Shown here: positions 7,681-17,627 of the stretch, piece by piece
How positions within the stretch are numbered: the stretch's first letter is position 1
Layout of the letters: each line of letters begins with the position of its first letter
From: Lachnospiraceae bacterium
GTDB lineage: Bacteria; Bacillota; Clostridia; Lachnospirales; Lachnospiraceae
Assembly: GCA_017434885.1 (NCBI GenBank)
Contig: JAFSGE010000030.1
Span: 186,001-250,000 of the forward strand
Reading direction: 5' to 3'
Length of the DNA: 64,000 bases
Translations under genes and position numbers: made by a program
Notes under the pieces: generated by a model
Database searches by the model: none
Told to the model about the DNA's origin: nothing
The model's input: the letters and a program-made list of their open reading frames with translations, nothing else

Positions 7681-9294
7681 ATGTTAGGAGCAGATGCAAT
7701 TGTAAGATGTCTGGAAGAAGAAGGGGTAGAATACGTATTCGGTTATCCCGGTGTAGCGATTTGTCCTTTTTATAACAGTATTTTGGATTCGTCTATTCAG
7801 ACAATTTTAATCAGAACAGAACAGAATGCGGCACATGCGGCAAGCGGGCTTGCAAGAGTATCCGGTAAAGTAGGGGTATGTGCAGTGACCTCGGGACCGG
7901 GAGCAACCAATGTGATTACCGGTATTGCCACCGCGTTTGCAGACAGTATTCCGCTGGTATGTATTACAGGACAGGTAAATTCTGCACTTCTCGGAAGTGA
8001 CGTATTCCAGGAAGCGGATATTACAGGGGCGGTGGAATCCTTTGTAAAATACAGTTATCTTGTGAAGAACGTAAATGATATTCCCCGTATTTTTAAAGAG
8101 GCATTTCATATCGCAAATACAGGAAGAAAAGGACCTGTTTTAATTGATGTCCCCATTGATATCCAAAATGCGGAACTGAAAAAATTTGTTTATCCCGAAA
8201 CGGTATCCATGCGTACTTATAAGCCTACTGTCAGAGGAAATATGGCGCAGATAAAGAAAGTAGTTGCTGAACTTGATAAGGCAAAGAAACCCATTATTTG
8301 TGCTGGTGGCGGTGTGCTTTTGTCAGATGCGGAAGAAGAACTCCGTGCTTTTTCCAAGAAACACAAAATTCCCGTAGTATCTACTATGATGGGAATCGGT
8401 GCGATGCCCACCAAAGACCCGCTTTACTTCGGTATGGTGGGAAATAACGGAAAGCCTTATGCAAACCGTGCCATGAATGAGTCTGATCTTTTGATTATGG
8501 TTGGGGCAAGAGTGGCAGACAGAGCCGTAAGCCAGCCTGACTTAATTACAGAAAATAAAGTATTGGTACATATTGACGTTGACCCTGCGGAAATCGGTAA
8601 GAATGTAGGACCGACCATTCCCCTTGTAGGCGATGCAAAGCATATTTTTGAGGATTTGACAGCTCAGGAGATGGTTTGTGACCATGAGGAATGGCTCGAA
8701 ACACTGGCAGGCTACCGCGAGAGCATGGCACCTAAGAGAAATCCTAATCCTGAGTATGTGGACCCTGCGGTATTTATTACCAAGTTATCCGAAAAGATGC
8801 AGGACGATGCCATTTACGTTGCCGACGTAGGACAGAATCAGATTTGGTCCTGTGGATATCACATTGTAAAGGATGGCAGATTCTTAACCAGTGGCGGTAT
8901 GGGAACTATGGGGTATTCCATTCCGGCGGCTATGGGAGCAAAATTGGCTGATAAGTCTAAACAGGCGGTTGCGGTTTGCGGTGATGGTTCTTTCCAGATG
9001 TCTATGATGGAGCTTGCTACCATGAATCAGCATGATATTCCGGTTAAGATTGTGGTACTTAAGAATAATTATCTTGGTATGGTGCGTCAGTATCAGCATT
9101 TTACTTACAAAGATAACTATTCTGTAGTTGATTTGTCCGGCAGTCCCGATTTAGAAAAACTGGCGGCAGCATATAACATGGATTTTCTTCGTCTTACCAA
9201 TATGGAAAATGTTGATGAGGCAATTGATAAGTTTCTTGCAGAGGACAAGTCCATGATTATGGAATGCATTATTAATCCAATGGATTTAGTATAG
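7681..9294 (+). CDS. ilvB: Acetolactate synthase large subunit
   Basis: Catalyses the first shared step of valine, leucine and isoleucine synthesis, condensing pyruvate with pyruvate or 2-oxobutyrate using thiamine diphosphate. The 537 residues cover the N-terminal TPP-binding domain (catalytic Glu in IRTEQNAAH), the central domain and the C-terminal TPP/Mg domain with GDGSFQMS and KNNYLGM. Slightly short for the family (550-590) but complete. The regulatory subunit follows 19 nt downstream, which marks it as the anabolic enzyme rather than the catabolic AlsS type. The ribosome binding site is GGTAGGAAAG just before the ATG. Confidence 0.93.
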   Translation: MLGADAIVRCLEEEGVEYVFGYPGVAICPFYNSILDSSIQTILIRTEQNAAHAASGLARVSGKVGVCAVTSGPGATNVITGIATAFADSIPLVCITGQVNSALLGSDVFQEADITGAVESFVKYSYLVKNVNDIPRIFKEAFHIANTGRKGPVLIDVPIDIQNAELKKFVYPETVSMRTYKPTVRGNMAQIKKVVAELDKAKKPIICAGGGVLLSDAEEELRAFSKKHKIPVVSTMMGIGAMPTKDPLYFGMVGNNGKPYANRAMNESDLLIMVGARVADRAVSQPDLITENKVLVHIDVDPAEIGKNVGPTIPLVGDAKHIFEDLTAQEMVCDHEEWLETLAGYRESMAPKRNPNPEYVDPAVFITKLSEKMQDDAIYVADVGQNQIWSCGYHIVKDGRFLTSGGMGTMGYSIPAAMGAKLADKSKQAVAVCGDGSFQMSMMELATMNQHDIPVKIVVLKNNYLGMVRQYQHFTYKDNYSVVDLSGSPDLEKLAAAYNMDFLRLTNMENVDEAIDKFLAEDKSMIMECIINPMDLV

Positions 9295-10441: not shown

Positions 10442-11491
<1,050 letters not shown>

Positions 11492-11502
11492 TATGAATAG
11501 CA

Positions 11503-11536
11503 AAAAGGTCATCGGCAGATTTGTCGATGACCTTTT
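11503..11536. terminator. Bidirectional terminator after ilvC
   Basis: Twelve bases (11503-11514, AAAAGGTCATCG) pair perfectly with 11525-11536 around a 10-nt loop, with A and T tracts built into the stem ends. It lies between forward ilvC and the reverse XRE gene and can serve both. Confidence 0.85.
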
Positions 11537-11552
11537 AAAATTCGTAGGTAAA

Positions 11553-11882
11553 TTATGAATCGGATAGTAGTTTTGCTTCCAATTCCAAAATATCCATAAG
11601 ATATTTCTTTTTTGAATCAGGACATTTATTGTATATCTCTATAATTCTTGAAGGAATCGGATAGTCAATCGTAATTCCTTTCAAAAGATAATCAAGGCTG
11701 ATTCCCAATATTTCACTTACCTTTATTAAATTCTCAACGGAAAGACCGATAATACCGCGTTCTGCTTCGCTGTAATGTTTGATAGAAATATCCAGTCGTT
11801 CTGCAAGCTGTTCCTGAGTGAGGTTCATCAGCTTTCTTTGAGTTCTCAAACGTTCACCCATGGCTTTTTTGTAATTATTCAT
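11553..11882 (-). CDS. XRE-family helix-turn-helix regulator
   Basis: A 109-residue DNA-binding protein. Residues about 8-65 form a Cro/CI-type HTH (RLRTQRKLMNLTQEQLAERL and the SIKHYSEAERG recognition helix). A short C-terminal helix may serve dimerisation. There is no sensor or peptidase domain. AGGAG lies 7 nt before the ATG. It is transcribed away from the GTPase cassette, and the 133-bp gap between them holds a promoter and repeats, so it most likely regulates its neighbours. Related regulators control mobile elements, toxin-antitoxin pairs and defence genes. Confidence 0.8.
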   Translation of the reverse strand: MNNYKKAMGERLRTQRKLMNLTQEQLAERLDISIKHYSEAERGIIGLSVENLIKVSEILGISLDYLLKGITIDYPIPSRIIEIYNKCPDSKKKYLMDILELEAKLLSDS

Positions 11883-11928
11883 GAACTGACTCCTATGTTT
11901 TGATTTGCGCCTAGTAATAGTATATATG

Positions 11929-11990
11929 AAGGTGTTAATTATAAAAACAACCTACAAGGTGTTGTAAAAATATACTAAAAAGGTTATAAT
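11929..11990 (+). promoter_or_regulatory. Cassette promoter with repeated AAGGTGTT boxes
   Basis: TTGTAA (11962-11967), 17 bp and TATAAT (11985-11990) form a strong promoter for the forward genes. AAGGTGTT occurs twice in direct orientation (11929-11936 and 11956-11963), the second copy touching the -35 box. AACAACCT between them resembles an inverted half site. These are candidate XRE operators. Regulation is inferred from layout. Confidence 0.6.
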
Positions 11991-12015
11991 TTGTAAGAAG
12001 TAGGAGGTACATAAA

Positions 12016-12426
12016 ATGGGTACAATTAAGAGAAGAATCAGAAATGCCAGATTTGGTACAAAAATTATGACTGTATTATCAGAAAATGAATGTCTGATGT
12101 ATCAGGCGGTAATGAGTTGTAGCACCAATAGAGGAAAGTTGTGGTGCGGAGCGGTAGTTGGTCTTTCTGATAAAAGATTTTTTGTTGAGTGGCAAAGAAC
12201 AAAAGGAAAGAACATTGCCATTGCTTATGAGCAAATAATCAGTTGGCAGGTAGGGAATGAATTGGGTGGTATCAGTGGAATTGTTGCCAAAATTGTCCCC
12301 AATTCATCTGAGTGTGTGGATGTTTATGTGAATCCACAGATGATGGTACGCATTTACGGAGAAGCATCTGAAAACAAAATTTTAATAAACAATTTAAAGA
12401 AATACTGTCATGATAAGCAAAAATAA
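12016..12426 (+). CDS. Hypothetical protein, possible PH-like fold
   Basis: A 136-residue soluble protein, first gene of the cassette, with GTAGGAGG before the ATG. The N-terminal 20 residues are basic. Then comes alternating beta-type sequence ending in a helix (residues about 118-134). The strand pattern followed by one C-terminal helix, with phrases such as VGLSDKRFFVEW and IISWQVG, resembles bacterial PH/GRAM-like membrane-associated domains. This is a resemblance only. It lies 17 nt before the GTPase gene, which implies coupled expression and perhaps membrane or lipid targeting of the complex. Confidence 0.5.
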   Translation: MGTIKRRIRNARFGTKIMTVLSENECLMYQAVMSCSTNRGKLWCGAVVGLSDKRFFVEWQRTKGKNIAIAYEQIISWQVGNELGGISGIVAKIVPNSSECVDVYVNPQMMVRIYGEASENKILINNLKKYCHDKQK

Positions 12427-12443
12427 TAAGGAAGGATAAAAAA

Positions 12444-14312
12444 ATGCAAAAAAATGTTTTATGTGAAAGAGACGAAAGAGTTGCATTAACAACTTTATTT
12501 GAGGATTTCTCCGTAATATTACAGGATTGTGATGATAATAACGTAAAGGCAAGAATTAAAAATGCACTTCAAGAAATGAATGATACAACTATGTATATGG
12601 TCATAGGTGAAGAAAAGGTTGGAAAAACAAGCTTAATAAATGCTGTGTTTGAAAATGTTTTTAAAGCATCGGGTGAAATGATAGGAGATATCTGTGAATA
12701 TCGATGGGGGGAACAGGAATTTACTACACCAATAAAAGAAGGATTTCAAAAAAGATTTCTTGCATCAGAAGAATTAAAAGGCTTATCGATTGTTGATACG
12801 AGAGGTTTAGAGTGCATCAATAAGGAATCATTTCAAAAAATTAGTGAAATGGCCCAGAAGTGTGGTGCTATATTTGTAGTTCTTGATGTAAAACGTGTAA
12901 ATAGTCCGAAGGTGTGGGATGTAATTGAAAAATTCCCGGAGAAAAGGATGCTTTTCTTTTTAACAAAATGTGATCTGGTGACCAAGGATGATTTGGATAG
13001 AAGCATTGATAAAATAAAAGTATATATGAATGAAAGCAATATATCTGCGACTGTTTTTCCGATTAGTTTGTCAGAAACAGAAAAAATACCGGGAGTAGCT
13101 ACAATAGATAATGTGCGTTTACATATTAAAAATCAGCTGATAGGAGAAAATCCGATATTAAGTAAGCAAAGAGAAAATATAAAGGAAGTAAAATCATTAC
13201 TGGCAGAATTGCATAATTCGTTTGCTTTACGAAAGGAACAGTATCATTCAGATGCAGAAATTCTATTGGAAATAAATCGGTCAATGGATTCTTATATTGT
13301 AAATCATAAGACGACAATTACAGATTTTATTGATAATTTGGCAATTGAAATTAATAAAGATATCGACAGCTATGAAGAAGAAATTATTTCTAAATTAGAT
13401 CCATATAAAATTAAAGAGCGTTTTCAGAGGAAAGAAGATTTTGAAGACTATCTGAATATGGTAAATGAAAATTACAAGAACATGATGAACGAGTCTATAA
13501 ATCGAAAAACCATAGAGGCAATCAAAAGTTGCCTTCATGATTTGGAAATTGTTTTTCAAGAAGCTGTCGGATATTTTAATACAAGAGAAAATATTTTGGA
13601 ATTAAATGACCGATTTTACGGTTCTCTTTCAAACAGCAGAAAACAAATGGTCGTACAAACAAAAAATGCTGTCATGGAAACCGGTGAATTTTATAAAACC
13701 TTAAATGAAGCATCTGAAACTTTGTTTTTACAAATTTGGGAGGCAAGAAAAAAGTATGATGCACAAATTAGAAATAGAAAAGCTTTGTCTACAATAGTTG
13801 GTGGAGGTGCGGGCGGTACCTTAGGCGCACTTGGAGGATTAGCAATAGGAGCTTCTGCGAGTGGGGCAGCAACTGGTGCTGTAAGTGCAGCGGCTGGAGC
13901 AGTGGGGGTAACGACTGGAGCAGGTACGTTAGCCGGAATTGGGACGGTTGCCGGAACTTTGGTAGGAGGAGTTGCATTAATAGCCTTGGTAGGAATCGGT
14001 TTTATAGTGGGAACGGTTCTGATTAATTCTATTGCAAAAGCAATATTTGATCCAAGATCTGCGTCAAAATTGAATGAAGTGACAGCACGGTGTATTGAAC
14101 AATTTAAAGAAGAAGTGAATCATACCAGAGTAAAAATGATAGAACAAGTTTCAACACAGATATCATCAATTTTTGAAAATGAATTAACTTCTGTAGATAG
14201 TTGTTTTACTGAATTTCGTATGTCAATCAATATAGATGAAAAGAAATTGCCAATAATAGAGCAAAGATTGCTTGAAACTGAAAAATTAATAAACGCAATC
14301 GACCAGATGTAA
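12444..14312 (+). CDS. Dynamin-like GTPase with C-terminal membrane hairpin
   Basis: A 622-residue large GTPase. G1 is GEEKVGKT (55-62), G3 is DTRG (118-121), G4 is TKCD (174-177), and TT at 94-95 could be G2. A long helical region of about residues 230-450 follows the G domain, like a dynamin stalk. Residues 451-533 form a Gly/Ala-rich hydrophobic stretch that should insert in the membrane as a hairpin. A helical tail follows. This order (GTPase, helical middle, membrane paddle, helical tail) matches bacterial dynamin-like proteins such as LeoA in outline. It differs from Era/Der-type GTPases, which are shorter. It is AT-rich and Lys/Asn/Ile-rich compared with the flanking ilv/leu genes, which suggests transfer. 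Membrane remodelling, possibly in defence, is inference. Confidence 0.72.
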   Translation: MQKNVLCERDERVALTTLFEDFSVILQDCDDNNVKARIKNALQEMNDTTMYMVIGEEKVGKTSLINAVFENVFKASGEMIGDICEYRWGEQEFTTPIKEGFQKRFLASEELKGLSIVDTRGLECINKESFQKISEMAQKCGAIFVVLDVKRVNSPKVWDVIEKFPEKRMLFFLTKCDLVTKDDLDRSIDKIKVYMNESNISATVFPISLSETEKIPGVATIDNVRLHIKNQLIGENPILSKQRENIKEVKSLLAELHNSFALRKEQYHSDAEILLEINRSMDSYIVNHKTTITDFIDNLAIEINKDIDSYEEEIISKLDPYKIKERFQRKEDFEDYLNMVNENYKNMMNESINRKTIEAIKSCLHDLEIVFQEAVGYFNTRENILELNDRFYGSLSNSRKQMVVQTKNAVMETGEFYKTLNEASETLFLQIWEARKKYDAQIRNRKALSTIVGGGAGGTLGALGGLAIGASASGAATGAVSAAAGAVGVTTGAGTLAGIGTVAGTLVGGVALIALVGIGFIVGTVLINSIAKAIFDPRSASKLNEVTARCIEQFKEEVNHTRVKMIEQVSTQISSIFENELTSVDSCFTEFRMSINIDEKKLPIIEQRLLETEKLINAIDQM

Positions 14313-14328
14313 GGAGATGAACAATATT

Positions 14329-15642
14329 ATGGATAAAAAACAAACGAAATTGATGAAGTGGCTAAATGAATTGGAGCAATATGCCAAAGAAAAACAACTT
14401 TCAATAAGAATCATAGACGGAATAGAAGATTGTAAAAGGCAGGCTGCTGATAAAAATTTAGACTGGAATAAAATGAAAAGAACAGTAGATGAAGTTTTGG
14501 AGAGTGTTGAAAGTAAAGCGGTTCCGGCTGTAACACAGGAGTCTGAAAAAGAAAATGAGGTATCTATTCAGGTAATTCGAGAACAAGTAAAGAAAATGGC
14601 ATTAAGATGTCAAAACGAAAATAAGGATACACTAGATAATTTTTTAGAACCTGAAAGAATTGCTATTAAGAAAAGTCATGAACGATTGCGAGAAATTTCT
14701 TATACAAAAGCACATATAGCAGAATTAAAAGATGAAGAATTATTGTTGGGATTTTTCCGCAAATGTAAAAAAGAGCATGAAAATGATATGATTCATTTGT
14801 TTCAACAAATGCTTGATGATATCAGTAATAATTATAATTATATGCTAGAGCATATGAGAAGCATGTTACGAAGTGCAGGTGGTTATAAGATTGGTATCGG
14901 AAGTGAAAAAGTTTATCATGAATATGAAGAAAGAAAAGAAGGGATTAAGAAGAAACTGTTAAGCGAAGCACAATCCAGTGATGTGGGAGGAAAAGACATT
15001 GAGGATTTAGGGCAAAAATGTAAATCAGCAATAAAAAAGATTACAAAAAAGCATGAAAAGAAAAGGAAACTATTTGCTTGGATACCGCTTTTGATATTAC
15101 TGTGTTGTTTTATGGTAAGCGCAATCAGTACACAGGAACAAAATCAAGCTATTGTTGAAGAGGCTGAAAAGCAAAATGAGGAAGAAAATTCAGTAATTAC
15201 GGATATGTTGGTTGAAAAAGCCATAGATTATGTAAAAGATGCTAACACAAGTAGTATTGGTAATTTTTTGTCAGCAATAGTCAGTTTGATTGGGGCGCTT
15301 GCAGTTAGTTTAGGAGCGATGCTTATATTTATATTGTTAATGATTATTTTACTGTATACTGCATATGTAAAAATATTACGAAAATGTTGTGATAAGCAAA
15401 TCTGTAAACAATGCGAAAAATATTTAAATGTTGAATTTACACGTTTTGAGCAGCAAAATGTTTTGGTAACAAAAACTGAAATGGCTATGAAAAGTATAGT
15501 AGAAGGCTATGAACAACAATATTTAGTTATATTAAATAATATTTTTTGTGAAACAACAAATGAACAACATGAACGGTCAGAACCCATACAAGATAAGTAT
15601 GGACAATTAAAAGAAGCATGGAATCAGTTAAAATACGAATAA
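14329..15642 (+). CDS. Membrane protein with long helical cytoplasmic region, unknown
   Basis: A 437-residue protein. Residues 1 to about 240 are highly charged and helical, with coiled-coil potential. One hydrophobic segment lies at about 247-266 and a longer one (probably two passes or one long helix) at about 320-350. A helical tail follows. AAGGAG at 14311-14316 abuts an ATG at 14317, too close to serve it, so ATG 14329 is preferred although its spacing is long. The stop of the GTPase gene overlaps this ribosome binding site, showing tight coupling. I find no known domain. It is a plausible membrane partner of the GTPase. Confidence 0.55.
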   Translation: MDKKQTKLMKWLNELEQYAKEKQLSIRIIDGIEDCKRQAADKNLDWNKMKRTVDEVLESVESKAVPAVTQESEKENEVSIQVIREQVKKMALRCQNENKDTLDNFLEPERIAIKKSHERLREISYTKAHIAELKDEELLLGFFRKCKKEHENDMIHLFQQMLDDISNNYNYMLEHMRSMLRSAGGYKIGIGSEKVYHEYEERKEGIKKKLLSEAQSSDVGGKDIEDLGQKCKSAIKKITKKHEKKRKLFAWIPLLILLCCFMVSAISTQEQNQAIVEEAEKQNEEENSVITDMLVEKAIDYVKDANTSSIGNFLSAIVSLIGALAVSLGAMLIFILLMIILLYTAYVKILRKCCDKQICKQCEKYLNVEFTRFEQQNVLVTKTEMAMKSIVEGYEQQYLVILNNIFCETTNEQHERSEPIQDKYGQLKEAWNQLKYE

Positions 15643-15652
15643 GAGGTATGAG

Positions 15653-16225
15653 ATGGATAATTTAAAAGGAATTATGAAAATAGGAAAAAGAACGGGAACT
15701 ATGAACGGAGGAATGAAATCAGAAACCGAAAACGGGGTGAATCTAAAAGCCATGAAAAAAGAACTGGAAGCGAAGATGAACGAAAAAGCAAAGGTTTACG
15801 GTTTCATCGGCATGGAGATTTATGACCTTTCTAAGGAAAATAAAATAGAAGTACCTCAAATTCAAAGTTACCTTGAAAAAATGGACGAAATAAACCAAAC
15901 AATAGAAGAATTGGAAAATACAATTAAGGAACAGGAGACAAAGAATAAGGGCAAGAATGTCTGTGTCTGTGGTTGCAAATTAAAACCGCAAGACAGATTT
16001 TGTCCTAACTGTGGTGAAGTTGTTCCTAAAAATACTGTTTTGTGTATTTGCGGAACAGAGATTGAAAAAGATGCCAAGTTCTGCAGAACTTGTGGAAAAA
16101 GCATGGAAGATATTTTGAAAAAGCAGGAAGAAGAAAAACAACCGGCTATGAAGGAGTGTATCTGTGGAGCGAAAGTACCTGTAGGACAATTTATGTGTTT
16201 GGAATGCGGCAGAAAAATTGAATAA
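15653..16225 (+). CDS. Coiled-coil protein with three tandem zinc ribbons
   Basis: A 190-residue protein, last of the cassette. A helical region at about residues 30-97 is followed by three zinc ribbons. Their metal ligands are C104/C106 with C117/C120, C131/C133 with C144/C147, and C169/C171 with C182/C185. Each opens with an unusual CxCG knuckle in place of CxxC, and a further Cys108 lies in the first. Ribbons of this kind usually bind protein or nucleic acid. The start is 10 nt after the previous stop with GAGGT upstream. The family and partner are unknown. Confidence 0.6.
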   Translation: MDNLKGIMKIGKRTGTMNGGMKSETENGVNLKAMKKELEAKMNEKAKVYGFIGMEIYDLSKENKIEVPQIQSYLEKMDEINQTIEELENTIKEQETKNKGKNVCVCGCKLKPQDRFCPNCGEVVPKNTVLCICGTEIEKDAKFCRTCGKSMEDILKKQEEEKQPAMKECICGAKVPVGQFMCLECGRKIE

Positions 16226-16239
16226 GACATAAAAAAGAA

Positions 16240-16285
16240 AAATCCTGTGCGAATTTAATCTGAATTCACAGGATTTCTTCTTTTT
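16240..16285 (+). terminator. Terminator of the GTPase cassette
   Basis: AAATCCTGTG (16240-16249) pairs with 16267-16276. An inner AATT/AATT helix shortens the loop, and the T-rich cttcttttt follows. It closes the accessory cassette before the leuC promoter. Confidence 0.8.
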
Positions 16286-16303
16286 AGGTTAAAATATGAC
16301 ATG

Positions 16304-16332
16304 TTTTCAAAAACGGATACTTGTGGTAAAAT
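16304..16332 (+). promoter_or_regulatory. Probable leuC promoter
   Basis: TTTTCA (16304-16309), 17 bp and TAAAAT (16327-16332) lie between the cassette terminator and the leuC ribosome binding site. The -35 box matches only four of six consensus bases. No T-box or other leader fits in the roughly 25 nt left before the start. Confidence 0.45.
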
Positions 16333-16364
16333 CATAATAATTGGTTTTAAAGGAGGTAATAACC

Positions 16365-17627
16365 ATGGGAATGACAATGACGCAGAAAATTTTGGCTGCT
16401 GCCGCAGGTCTTGACTATGTAGAGGCAGGACAGCTCATTGAAGCAGATTTGGATTTGGTACTGGGAAATGATATTACCAGCCCGGTAGCAATCAAAGAAA
16501 TGGAAAAAATGAATGTGGACGGTGTGTTTAACAAGGATAAGATTGCCCTTGTACCTGACCACTTTGTACCCAATAAGGATATTAAATCAGCAGAGCATTG
16601 CAAATGTGTCAGAGAGTTTGCATACCGTAACGAAATCACCAACTATTTTGAGGTTGGCGAGATGGGCATTGAACATGCACTGTTACCGGAAAAAGGTCTT
16701 ACTGTTGCAGGTGACGTGATTATCGGTGCGGATTCACATACCTGTACATATGGTGCGCTCGGCGCATTCTCCACAGGTGTTGGCAGTACGGATATGGCTG
16801 CCGGTATGGCTACCGGTAAGGCGTGGTTTAAAGTGCCTGCTGCCATCAAATTTAATTTAATCGGCAAGCCTTCTAAGTGGGTTTCCGGTAAGGATGTTAT
16901 CTTGCATATTATCGGAATGATTGGTGTAGACGGTGCACTGTACAAATCCATGGAATTCGTAGGAGAGGGTATTCAGAACCTTACCATGGATGACCGCTTT
17001 ACCATTGCGAATATGGCAATCGAAGCAGGCGGAAAGAACGGCATTTTCCCTGTGGATGATTTGGCGATTGCTTACATGAAAGAACATTCCAAGAAAGAAT
17101 ATACTATTTATGAAGCAGACGAGGATGCTGTTTATGACGAAGAATATACCATTGATTTAAGTACACTTCGTCCTACCATTGCATTTCCTCATTTGCCCGA
17201 AAATACAAAGACAATCGATGAAATCACGGAAGACATTAAAATTGACCAGGTAGTAATCGGTTCCTGTACCAACGGACGTATCGATGATATGCGTATTGCT
17301 GCAGAGGTACTTAAGGGAAGACACGTTGCAAAAGGAATGCGTTGTATCGTGATTCCGGCTACACAGGCAATCTATATGCAGGCAATGGAAGAAGGACTTC
17401 TTAAAATCTTTATCGAAGCAGGTGCGGTTGTCAGCACACCTACCTGTGGACCTTGTCTTGGCGGTTATATGGGTATTCTTGCAGAAGGTGAAAGATGTGT
17501 ATCTACCACGAACCGTAACTTTGTAGGCCGTATGGGTCATGTGAAGAGTGAAATTTATCTGGCAAGCCCTGCTGTTGCGGCAGCAAGTGCAATTACAGGA
17601 AAGATTTCCTGTCCTTGTCAGTTGTAG
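16365..17627 (+). CDS. leuC: 3-isopropylmalate dehydratase large subunit
   Basis: With LeuD it isomerises 2-isopropylmalate to 3-isopropylmalate in leucine synthesis, using a [4Fe-4S] cluster. At 420 residues it is the shorter bacterial/archaeal type. The three cluster cysteines lie in VIGSCTNGR and [10 protein letters not shown], and [12 protein letters not shown] is intact. ATG 16365 follows AGGAGGT by 7 nt; a TTG at 16341 precedes that ribosome binding site and is rejected. The gene starts a new transcription unit after the accessory cassette. Confidence 0.94.

Follow-up and report, generated by a model that had tools for sequence, protein, structure and literature searches.

Do the genes that lie between ilvC and leuC in a 64,000-nucleotide stretch of Lachnospiraceae DNA (hereafter the window; contig JAFSGE010000030.1, positions 186,001 to 250,000) form a system of their own, and, if they do, what could such a system be for? 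The first-pass annotation of this locus described a self-contained cassette of four operon genes, for a possible PH-like protein, a dynamin-like GTPase, a coiled-coil membrane protein and a triple zinc-ribbon protein, divergent from an XRE regulator. We found all five open reading frames where it had placed them, between ilvC, which ends at 11491, and leuC, which starts at 16341 or 16365. Three of these genes recur together. A core made of the GTPase (12444 to 14312, plus strand, 622 aa), the coiled-coil protein (14317 to 15642, plus strand, 441 aa) and the zinc-ribbon protein (15653 to 16225, plus strand, 190 aa) is present in the same order at all seven distinct GTPase loci, namely the window, G016, G027, G034, L031, L034 and G312 (G and L being our handles for genomes and loci). 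Judged from its sequence, the unit is a small and probably repressible membrane system. That it is a membrane-remodelling conflict or envelope-damage system of new composition is the reading we favour, and we hold it at slightly under an even chance.

Relatives were sought with the GTPase, with the membrane protein and by a scan of the genome collection. The GTPase was found in 4 of 60 relatives. This set included 36 genus genomes, to which all four belong, and three of the four carry it at ilvC-leuC. Among 397 family genomes, searched at 1e-6, it was recovered from its own genome and from G312, and among 391 class genomes, searched at 1e-8, from its own genome only, with at most three candidates scored per genome in both searches. 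When the family search was relaxed to an E value of 1e-3, 14 of the 397 genomes gave a match: the window's own and G312 at full length, and 12 that were weak or partial, one of which (G232, locus L029) had no such cassette on inspection. The unit is thus not constant across the family, and its presence in 4 of the 36 genus genomes is patchy. Nor did any of the profiles searched assign it to a housekeeping system. As for its surroundings outside the ilvC-leuC junction, the G027 cassette adjoins a LysM-like peptidoglycan-binding gene (named by eye). At L034 an AAA_15 ATPase with a strong match to PD-T4-4_A (1e-37; 726 to 2682) ends 5.9 kb upstream of the cassette relative at 8001, and a 205-aa protein of no assigned family adjoins that ATPase.

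The fourth operon gene does not share this conservation. The 136-aa protein called PH-like (12016 to 12426, plus strand) was encoded in the window's own genome only, both in a search of 60 genomes (none in the 59 others) and among the 99 loci compared, which rules it out as a core member; the four-gene set first proposed therefore reduces to a conserved core of three, with this gene as an accessory. Its best matches were at 0.029 in Pfam and 0.06 in PHROG, with none in PADLOC or NCBIfam. Another 136-aa gene, which follows the zinc-ribbon gene at L031 and was considered as its counterpart, proved unrelated (E 1.2).

What kind of enzyme is the GTPase? In the window it carries the motifs G1 (GEEKVGKTS), G3 (DTRG) and G4 (TKCD), which are complete in six of the seven members; G312 has GRT in place of GKT, with loss of the P-loop lysine, and DVGG. 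The protein matches MMR_HSR1 in Pfam (6.7e-5), and TIGR00231 is matched by all seven. Past the G domain lie a helical part, a Gly/Ala-rich stretch that starts at about residue 450 and exceeds a hydropathy of 1.6 between residues 495 and 536, and a C-terminal part of about 85 aa. The hydrophobic stretch is present, by hydropathy, in all seven, and motifs and hydropathy together bear out the annotation of a GTPase with a hydrophobic Gly/Ala-rich stretch. Its affiliation to the dynamins is a separate matter, and we considered that it could be an Era-like enzyme with a membrane tail, the operon then comprising a GTPase switch, a membrane receptor and a zinc-ribbon effector. Two Era proteins are matched by the G domain at 2e-9 and 6.7e-10. 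Of ten dynamin-like proteins, which come from the same bacterial family and were chosen through the LeoBC model of PADLOC, one is matched better than this (1.1e-11) and the other nine less well (3.2e-8 to 1.1e-5); the match to Der is at 9.9e-8. Its sequence matches in the PDB (best 60 of 70) are mostly GTPases outside the dynamin group by name, and Pfam Dynamin_N is matched by two of the seven, at best 1.4e-4. The G3 motif of dynamins usually carries a proline, and G3 is DTRG or DTKG, with no proline, in six of the seven. Against an Era-like enzyme, the roughly 390 residues after the G domain, that is, the helical and hydrophobic trunk, match the LeoBC model in all seven GTPases (1.5e-5 to 8.2e-12), and the G-domain profiles also align to dynamin-like sets (1.7e-10 and 1.4e-9). 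We consider the Era-like alternative unlikely.

The trunk matches themselves need to be read with care. The helical region of the window's GTPase is matched at 1e-5 by a family of phage tape-measure proteins as well, so the weaker LeoBC matches carry little and may reflect composition. Compared directly with the ten dynamin-like proteins, the trunk gave short or insignificant matches only (best 25 columns, 1.6e-4, 50%). Two other PADLOC models were matched more sparsely, LeoA by one of the seven (3.9e-6) and mad8 by four (best 1.1e-4). As a counter of the family in whole genomes the LeoBC model is useless, with matches in all 200 relatives and all 14 control genomes, those listed falling mostly on G-domain positions in open frames of about 440 to 450 aa; trunk matches alone were used as evidence. 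In architecture the GTPase thus appears dynamin-like. Its G domain is at least as close to Era as to most dynamin-like proteins, and the enzyme counts as a candidate member of the dynamins.

What interests us most is that the partner position is filled by a protein without a recognisable GTPase. The coiled-coil protein of the window has hydrophobic segments at residues 249 to 274 and 312 to 357, and two such segments are found in six of the seven members (one above threshold in G312), so hydropathy upholds its description as a membrane protein; it is also the fastest-diverging of the three core proteins. It has no match to a GTPase family in Pfam, to PADLOC at 0.1 (none of the seven) or to the PDB at 1, and profile comparison connects it neither with the GTPase nor with dynamin-like sets. 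Its weak and scattered Pfam matches (DUF3671 at 1.8e-4 in two of the seven, Reticulon at 9.1e-4 in one) look like chance. The lengths of its segments resemble those of the trunk, hydrophobic stretch and tail of the GTPase, from which came the idea of a headless dynamin; profile comparison rejected it (0.8% against the GTPase and 0.1% against the dynamin-like sets). The third core protein, on the other hand, is readily classified, with matches to Zn_Ribbon_1 (1.2e-10) and DZR (1.5e-8) in Pfam and 12 ribbon cysteines invariant in the alignment of all seven, in agreement with the three zinc ribbons first annotated. Bacterial dynamin-like proteins have been described mostly as GTPase pairs (PMC6104087), and they may serve in defence, repair or secretion. 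One GTPase with a GTPase-less partner and a zinc ribbon would separate enzyme from partner, and would make the question of pairing testable.

Evidence on how this core evolves comes from the window and G016, its closest relative, where different cores sit between closely similar ends. Identity between the two is 99.1% for ilvC, 97.2% for the XRE protein, 49.6% for the GTPase, 27.6% for the coiled-coil protein and 92.1% for the zinc-ribbon protein, reaching 100% over the last three 40-residue bins of the latter. At the DNA level the two agree at 85-97% as far as about 12010, at 43-78% over the core from 12422 onwards and at 92-100% from 15722; G016 has next to nothing that corresponds to the PH-like gene. 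The blastn pieces end at 12009 and restart at 15728, which together with the identity profile delimits a diverged core from 12010 to 15727, with DNA on either side matching at 85-100%. The zinc-ribbon tree pairs the window with G016 (99/98). On the simpler reading, the core looks to have been exchanged as a block between shared ends, and one of two trees supports this: for the coiled-coil protein a p-AU of 0.042 narrowly rejects the pair, which had been named after the identities were seen, and for the GTPase the pair stands (p-AU 0.148; 0.173 with G312 included). The GTPase tree would also suit the one rival to this step, in which the GTPase and coiled-coil genes diverged fast in place with no exchange. 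We regard that as improbable, given how identity changes at the two edges, with a fall just after the XRE control region and a sudden rise from about 55% to 92-100% close to where the zinc-ribbon gene begins, and given the narrow rejection by the coiled-coil tree. A recent exchange may have touched the zinc-ribbon and leuC end too, as suggested by the 92-100% DNA identity with G016 (L013) over 15722 to 16621, compared with 86-93% in the rest of leuC. A joint swap of GTPase and membrane protein that leaves the regulator and the zinc-ribbon end in place would fit a conflict system that is pressed to vary, and the window and G016 cores on near-identical ends offer natural matched and mismatched pairs.

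Repression of the unit is suggested by its divergent regulator, a 109-aa XRE-family protein (11553 to 11882, minus strand; Pfam HTH_3, 2.5e-15). The same XRE type adjoins the core at four of the seven GTPase loci (the window, G016, G034 and G027), with 81-97% identity at the three other than the window. Between the divergent genes, the control region (11919 to 11990) holds the blocks AGTATATATGAAGG and AAGGTGTTG and a promoter-like TTGTAA-17-TATAAT. Both blocks are unchanged at all four loci with this XRE type, including G027, where they are kept although the cassette occupies another genomic site, and this invariance supports the candidate operator. At L031 a different HTH_3 gene stands in the same divergent position, and a PHD-like antitoxin gene (2.6e-29) lies just beyond it. 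A search of the 37 genus genomes with the XRE gene at 1e-15 gave six matches, those of the four loci above, G020 (77%) and G019 (54%). The G020 orthologue adjoins pieces of an apparently decayed CotH-like gene and a VTC-like gene (L098, 4247 to 6697; named by eye), and this locus looks like a cassette relic. In G019 (L099, 6702 to 8235) the XRE relative is transcribed divergently from the genes of two proteins that combine zinc-ribbon-like motifs with hydrophobic stretches, and nearby genes resemble, by eye, those of an integrative element.

The cassette had been thought to split a conserved branched-chain amino acid block, and this view did not survive comparison across the genus. In the 37 genus genomes, ilvC was found in 36 and leuC in 36, the two sharing a contig in 33, to which G020 adds a 34th through a second ilvC piece. 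The 34 readable gaps comprise 17 of at most 302 bp, nine of 1.1-1.35 kb and eight larger ones (G020 included). The cassette is present at this site in three genomes (the window, G016 and G034); G027, which carries it elsewhere, has a junction of 144 bp. Twenty further junctions were inspected (L035 to L054, seven of them short; G020 is L098), and the other cargo looked, by eye, like LysR genes, asparaginases, a sugar-transport set and a chemoreceptor, the G005 asparaginase being assigned by Pfam. Given such assorted gap sizes and cargo, the ilvC-leuC junction is a variable site in this genus and the cassette is one of several tenants. The G005 junction (L036, 1272 to 3952) also encodes a 526-aa protein matching the CorA-like models of PADLOC (5.5e-9); the 361-aa protein encoded after it matched nothing in Pfam or PADLOC at 0.001.

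Cargo that looks mostly metabolic or regulatory would suit a view of the unit as a secretion, vesicle or spore-envelope device, a niche function that travels as an accessory and has settled next to metabolic genes where insertions are tolerated. The LysM-like gene next to the G027 copy points the same way, as does the effect of LeoABC on vesicle release (PMC4159319). No secretion or spore gene is evidently common to the seven loci, an assessment made by eye with the flanking genes mostly not profile-searched, and we find this alternative quite unlikely.

How, then, could the unit work as a membrane-remodelling conflict or envelope-damage system? We hypothesise that the XRE protein would keep the operon low through the conserved control region and that, upon damage or infection, the GTPase would use GTP and assemble into oligomers on the inner membrane face by means of its hairpin. 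Its partner would be the coiled-coil membrane protein, where other bacterial pairs have a second dynamin, and the zinc-ribbon protein would serve in the cytosol as adaptor or sensor. All this could lead to a local remodelling of the membrane, sealing damage or limiting release from a phage-infected cell. DynA of B. subtilis is reported to delay phage lysis, with a role in phage resistance (PMC8844932); most bacterial dynamin-like genes are paired and their products work mostly as pairs, and roles in repair and drug tolerance are discussed for DynA and IniA (PMC6104087).

Such roles also feed the main rival, an envelope-stress or membrane-repair operon with no antiphage role, in which the XRE protein relays damage and the membrane is sealed by the GTPase together with its coiled-coil partner, a role of the kind proposed for DynA. 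Hydrophobic segments in both proteins would suit it. The presence of the unit in so few genus genomes and the sharply bounded core difference would be unusual for a general repair function, and we think this rival possible yet doubtful. The same patchiness and sharp core boundaries, together with the PD-T4-4_A-like ATPase at L034 and the antitoxin-type gene at L031, hint at defence, circumstantially. Several results weigh against our favoured reading. The GTPase matched none of the viral contigs, plasmids or phages searched, which also argues against phage or plasmid cargo. Within the junction there is no known defence gene, the remainder of the window not having been searched for any. Two of the seven core loci (L034 and G312) have no adjacent XRE gene, and the XRE orthologue of G020 stands at the ilvC-leuC site without the core and without the control blocks. 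To these must be added the Era-like G domain, the tape-measure match to the trunk and the GTPase tree described above.

Does the unit belong to a system already described? The claim that no described system has this exact set agrees with our searches of the open-licence PMC literature, where the titles and abstract openings listed, for at most 25 papers per search, contain no description of the gene set. PADLOC 2.0 does not match the unit as a system: the coiled-coil and PH-like proteins gave no match, the zinc-ribbon protein reached 0.0031 at best, and LeoBC was the only system model matched by the window's GTPase. The nearest candidate is Eleos (LeoA-LeoBC; PADLOC PDLC03841; PMC4159319), with which the unit shares a large GTPase with a hydrophobic glycine-rich stretch and a trunk matching LeoBC. 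It differs in having one GTPase, whose LeoBC matches fall outside the G domain, a partner with no GTPase match and an added zinc-ribbon gene, and membership of Eleos fails because no second GTPase is adjacent. Tandem LeoBC/LeoA-like pairs do occur in the family, in G193 (L078, 3120 to 6930; LeoBC 9.7e-99) and G062 (L079, 2881 to 6685; 6.9e-96); a short distance upstream, each has a 154-aa gene that closely resembles that of the other. DynA resembles the GTPase as a large GTPase of a Firmicute proposed to act on membranes, and consists of two fused dynamin-like units (PMC8844932, PMC6104087), whereas here a single GTPase is accompanied by separate coiled-coil and zinc-ribbon proteins. In the DO-GTPase/GAP1 conflict systems GTPases, zinc ribbons and membrane proteins also occur together, with ribbons fused to many of the GTPases and GAP1 present (PMC7159879); in our unit the ribbons are on a separate protein and GAP1 was not recognised, no GAP1 profile having been run directly.

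Two dynamin-like operons, in the family members G110 and G124, also have large GTPases that match the LeoBC model. In G110 (L081, C190:4500-11000) a 166-aa double zinc-ribbon protein is encoded between two GTPase genes, and its ribbons align to those of the window type (97.2%, 4.1e-11). By eye its tail is PH-like; a BLASTP comparison of the window's 136-aa protein with this candidate part was not significant (E 2.7). Unlike the unit, both operons have two or more GTPases together with what looks by eye like an M48-type peptidase gene, which in G110 follows the others, and a coiled-coil membrane protein of this type was not recognised in them. The G110 operon is an independent pairing of these kinds of GTPase and zinc-ribbon protein. 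G124 (L080) has a similar GTPase pair with the peptidase, the zinc-ribbon gene being absent from the stretch inspected. Tentatively, and with more doubt than confidence, the unit could represent a new class of dynamin-type conflict system. Here a zinc-ribbon adaptor and a coiled-coil partner with no GTPase of its own would stand in for the second dynamin, a single XRE repressor would govern the set, and strains would swap GTPase and partner as an allele block, as happens with the specificity modules of other immune systems.

The layout of the unit agrees with its description as self-contained, with the divergent XRE gene, the operon genes and a closing hairpin all present. Spacings within the operon are 17, 4 and 10 bp. 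GC content is 0.334 over 12016 to 16225 and 0.414 in the flanks, confirming the A+T richness relative to ilv and leu, and third-position GC is 0.24 in the GTPase gene and 0.23 in the coiled-coil gene, against 0.36 in ilvC and 0.39 in leuC. On the left, the unit is bounded by a hairpin 3' of ilvC (11503 to 11536, plus strand; fold of 11495 to 11545, -23.7 kcal/mol, z -8.0), common to the end of the convergent XRE gene; on the right, it is closed by a terminator-type hairpin at about 16232 to 16285 on the plus strand. The consensus terminator scan lists neither, and the operon's own terminator is supported by folding (-20 kcal/mol, z -5.1). As for its own promoter, the TTGTAA-17-TATAAT at 11962 to 11990 is a good match, but the region has no more promoter-like sites (15) than shuffled sequence (21.1 on average). 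The leuC gene of G034 shows 92-96% identity in two pieces, an initial value of 37.8% being an artefact of masked bases and reading frame. In the window, leuC has a promoter-like site at 16304 to 16332, beyond the operon hairpin.

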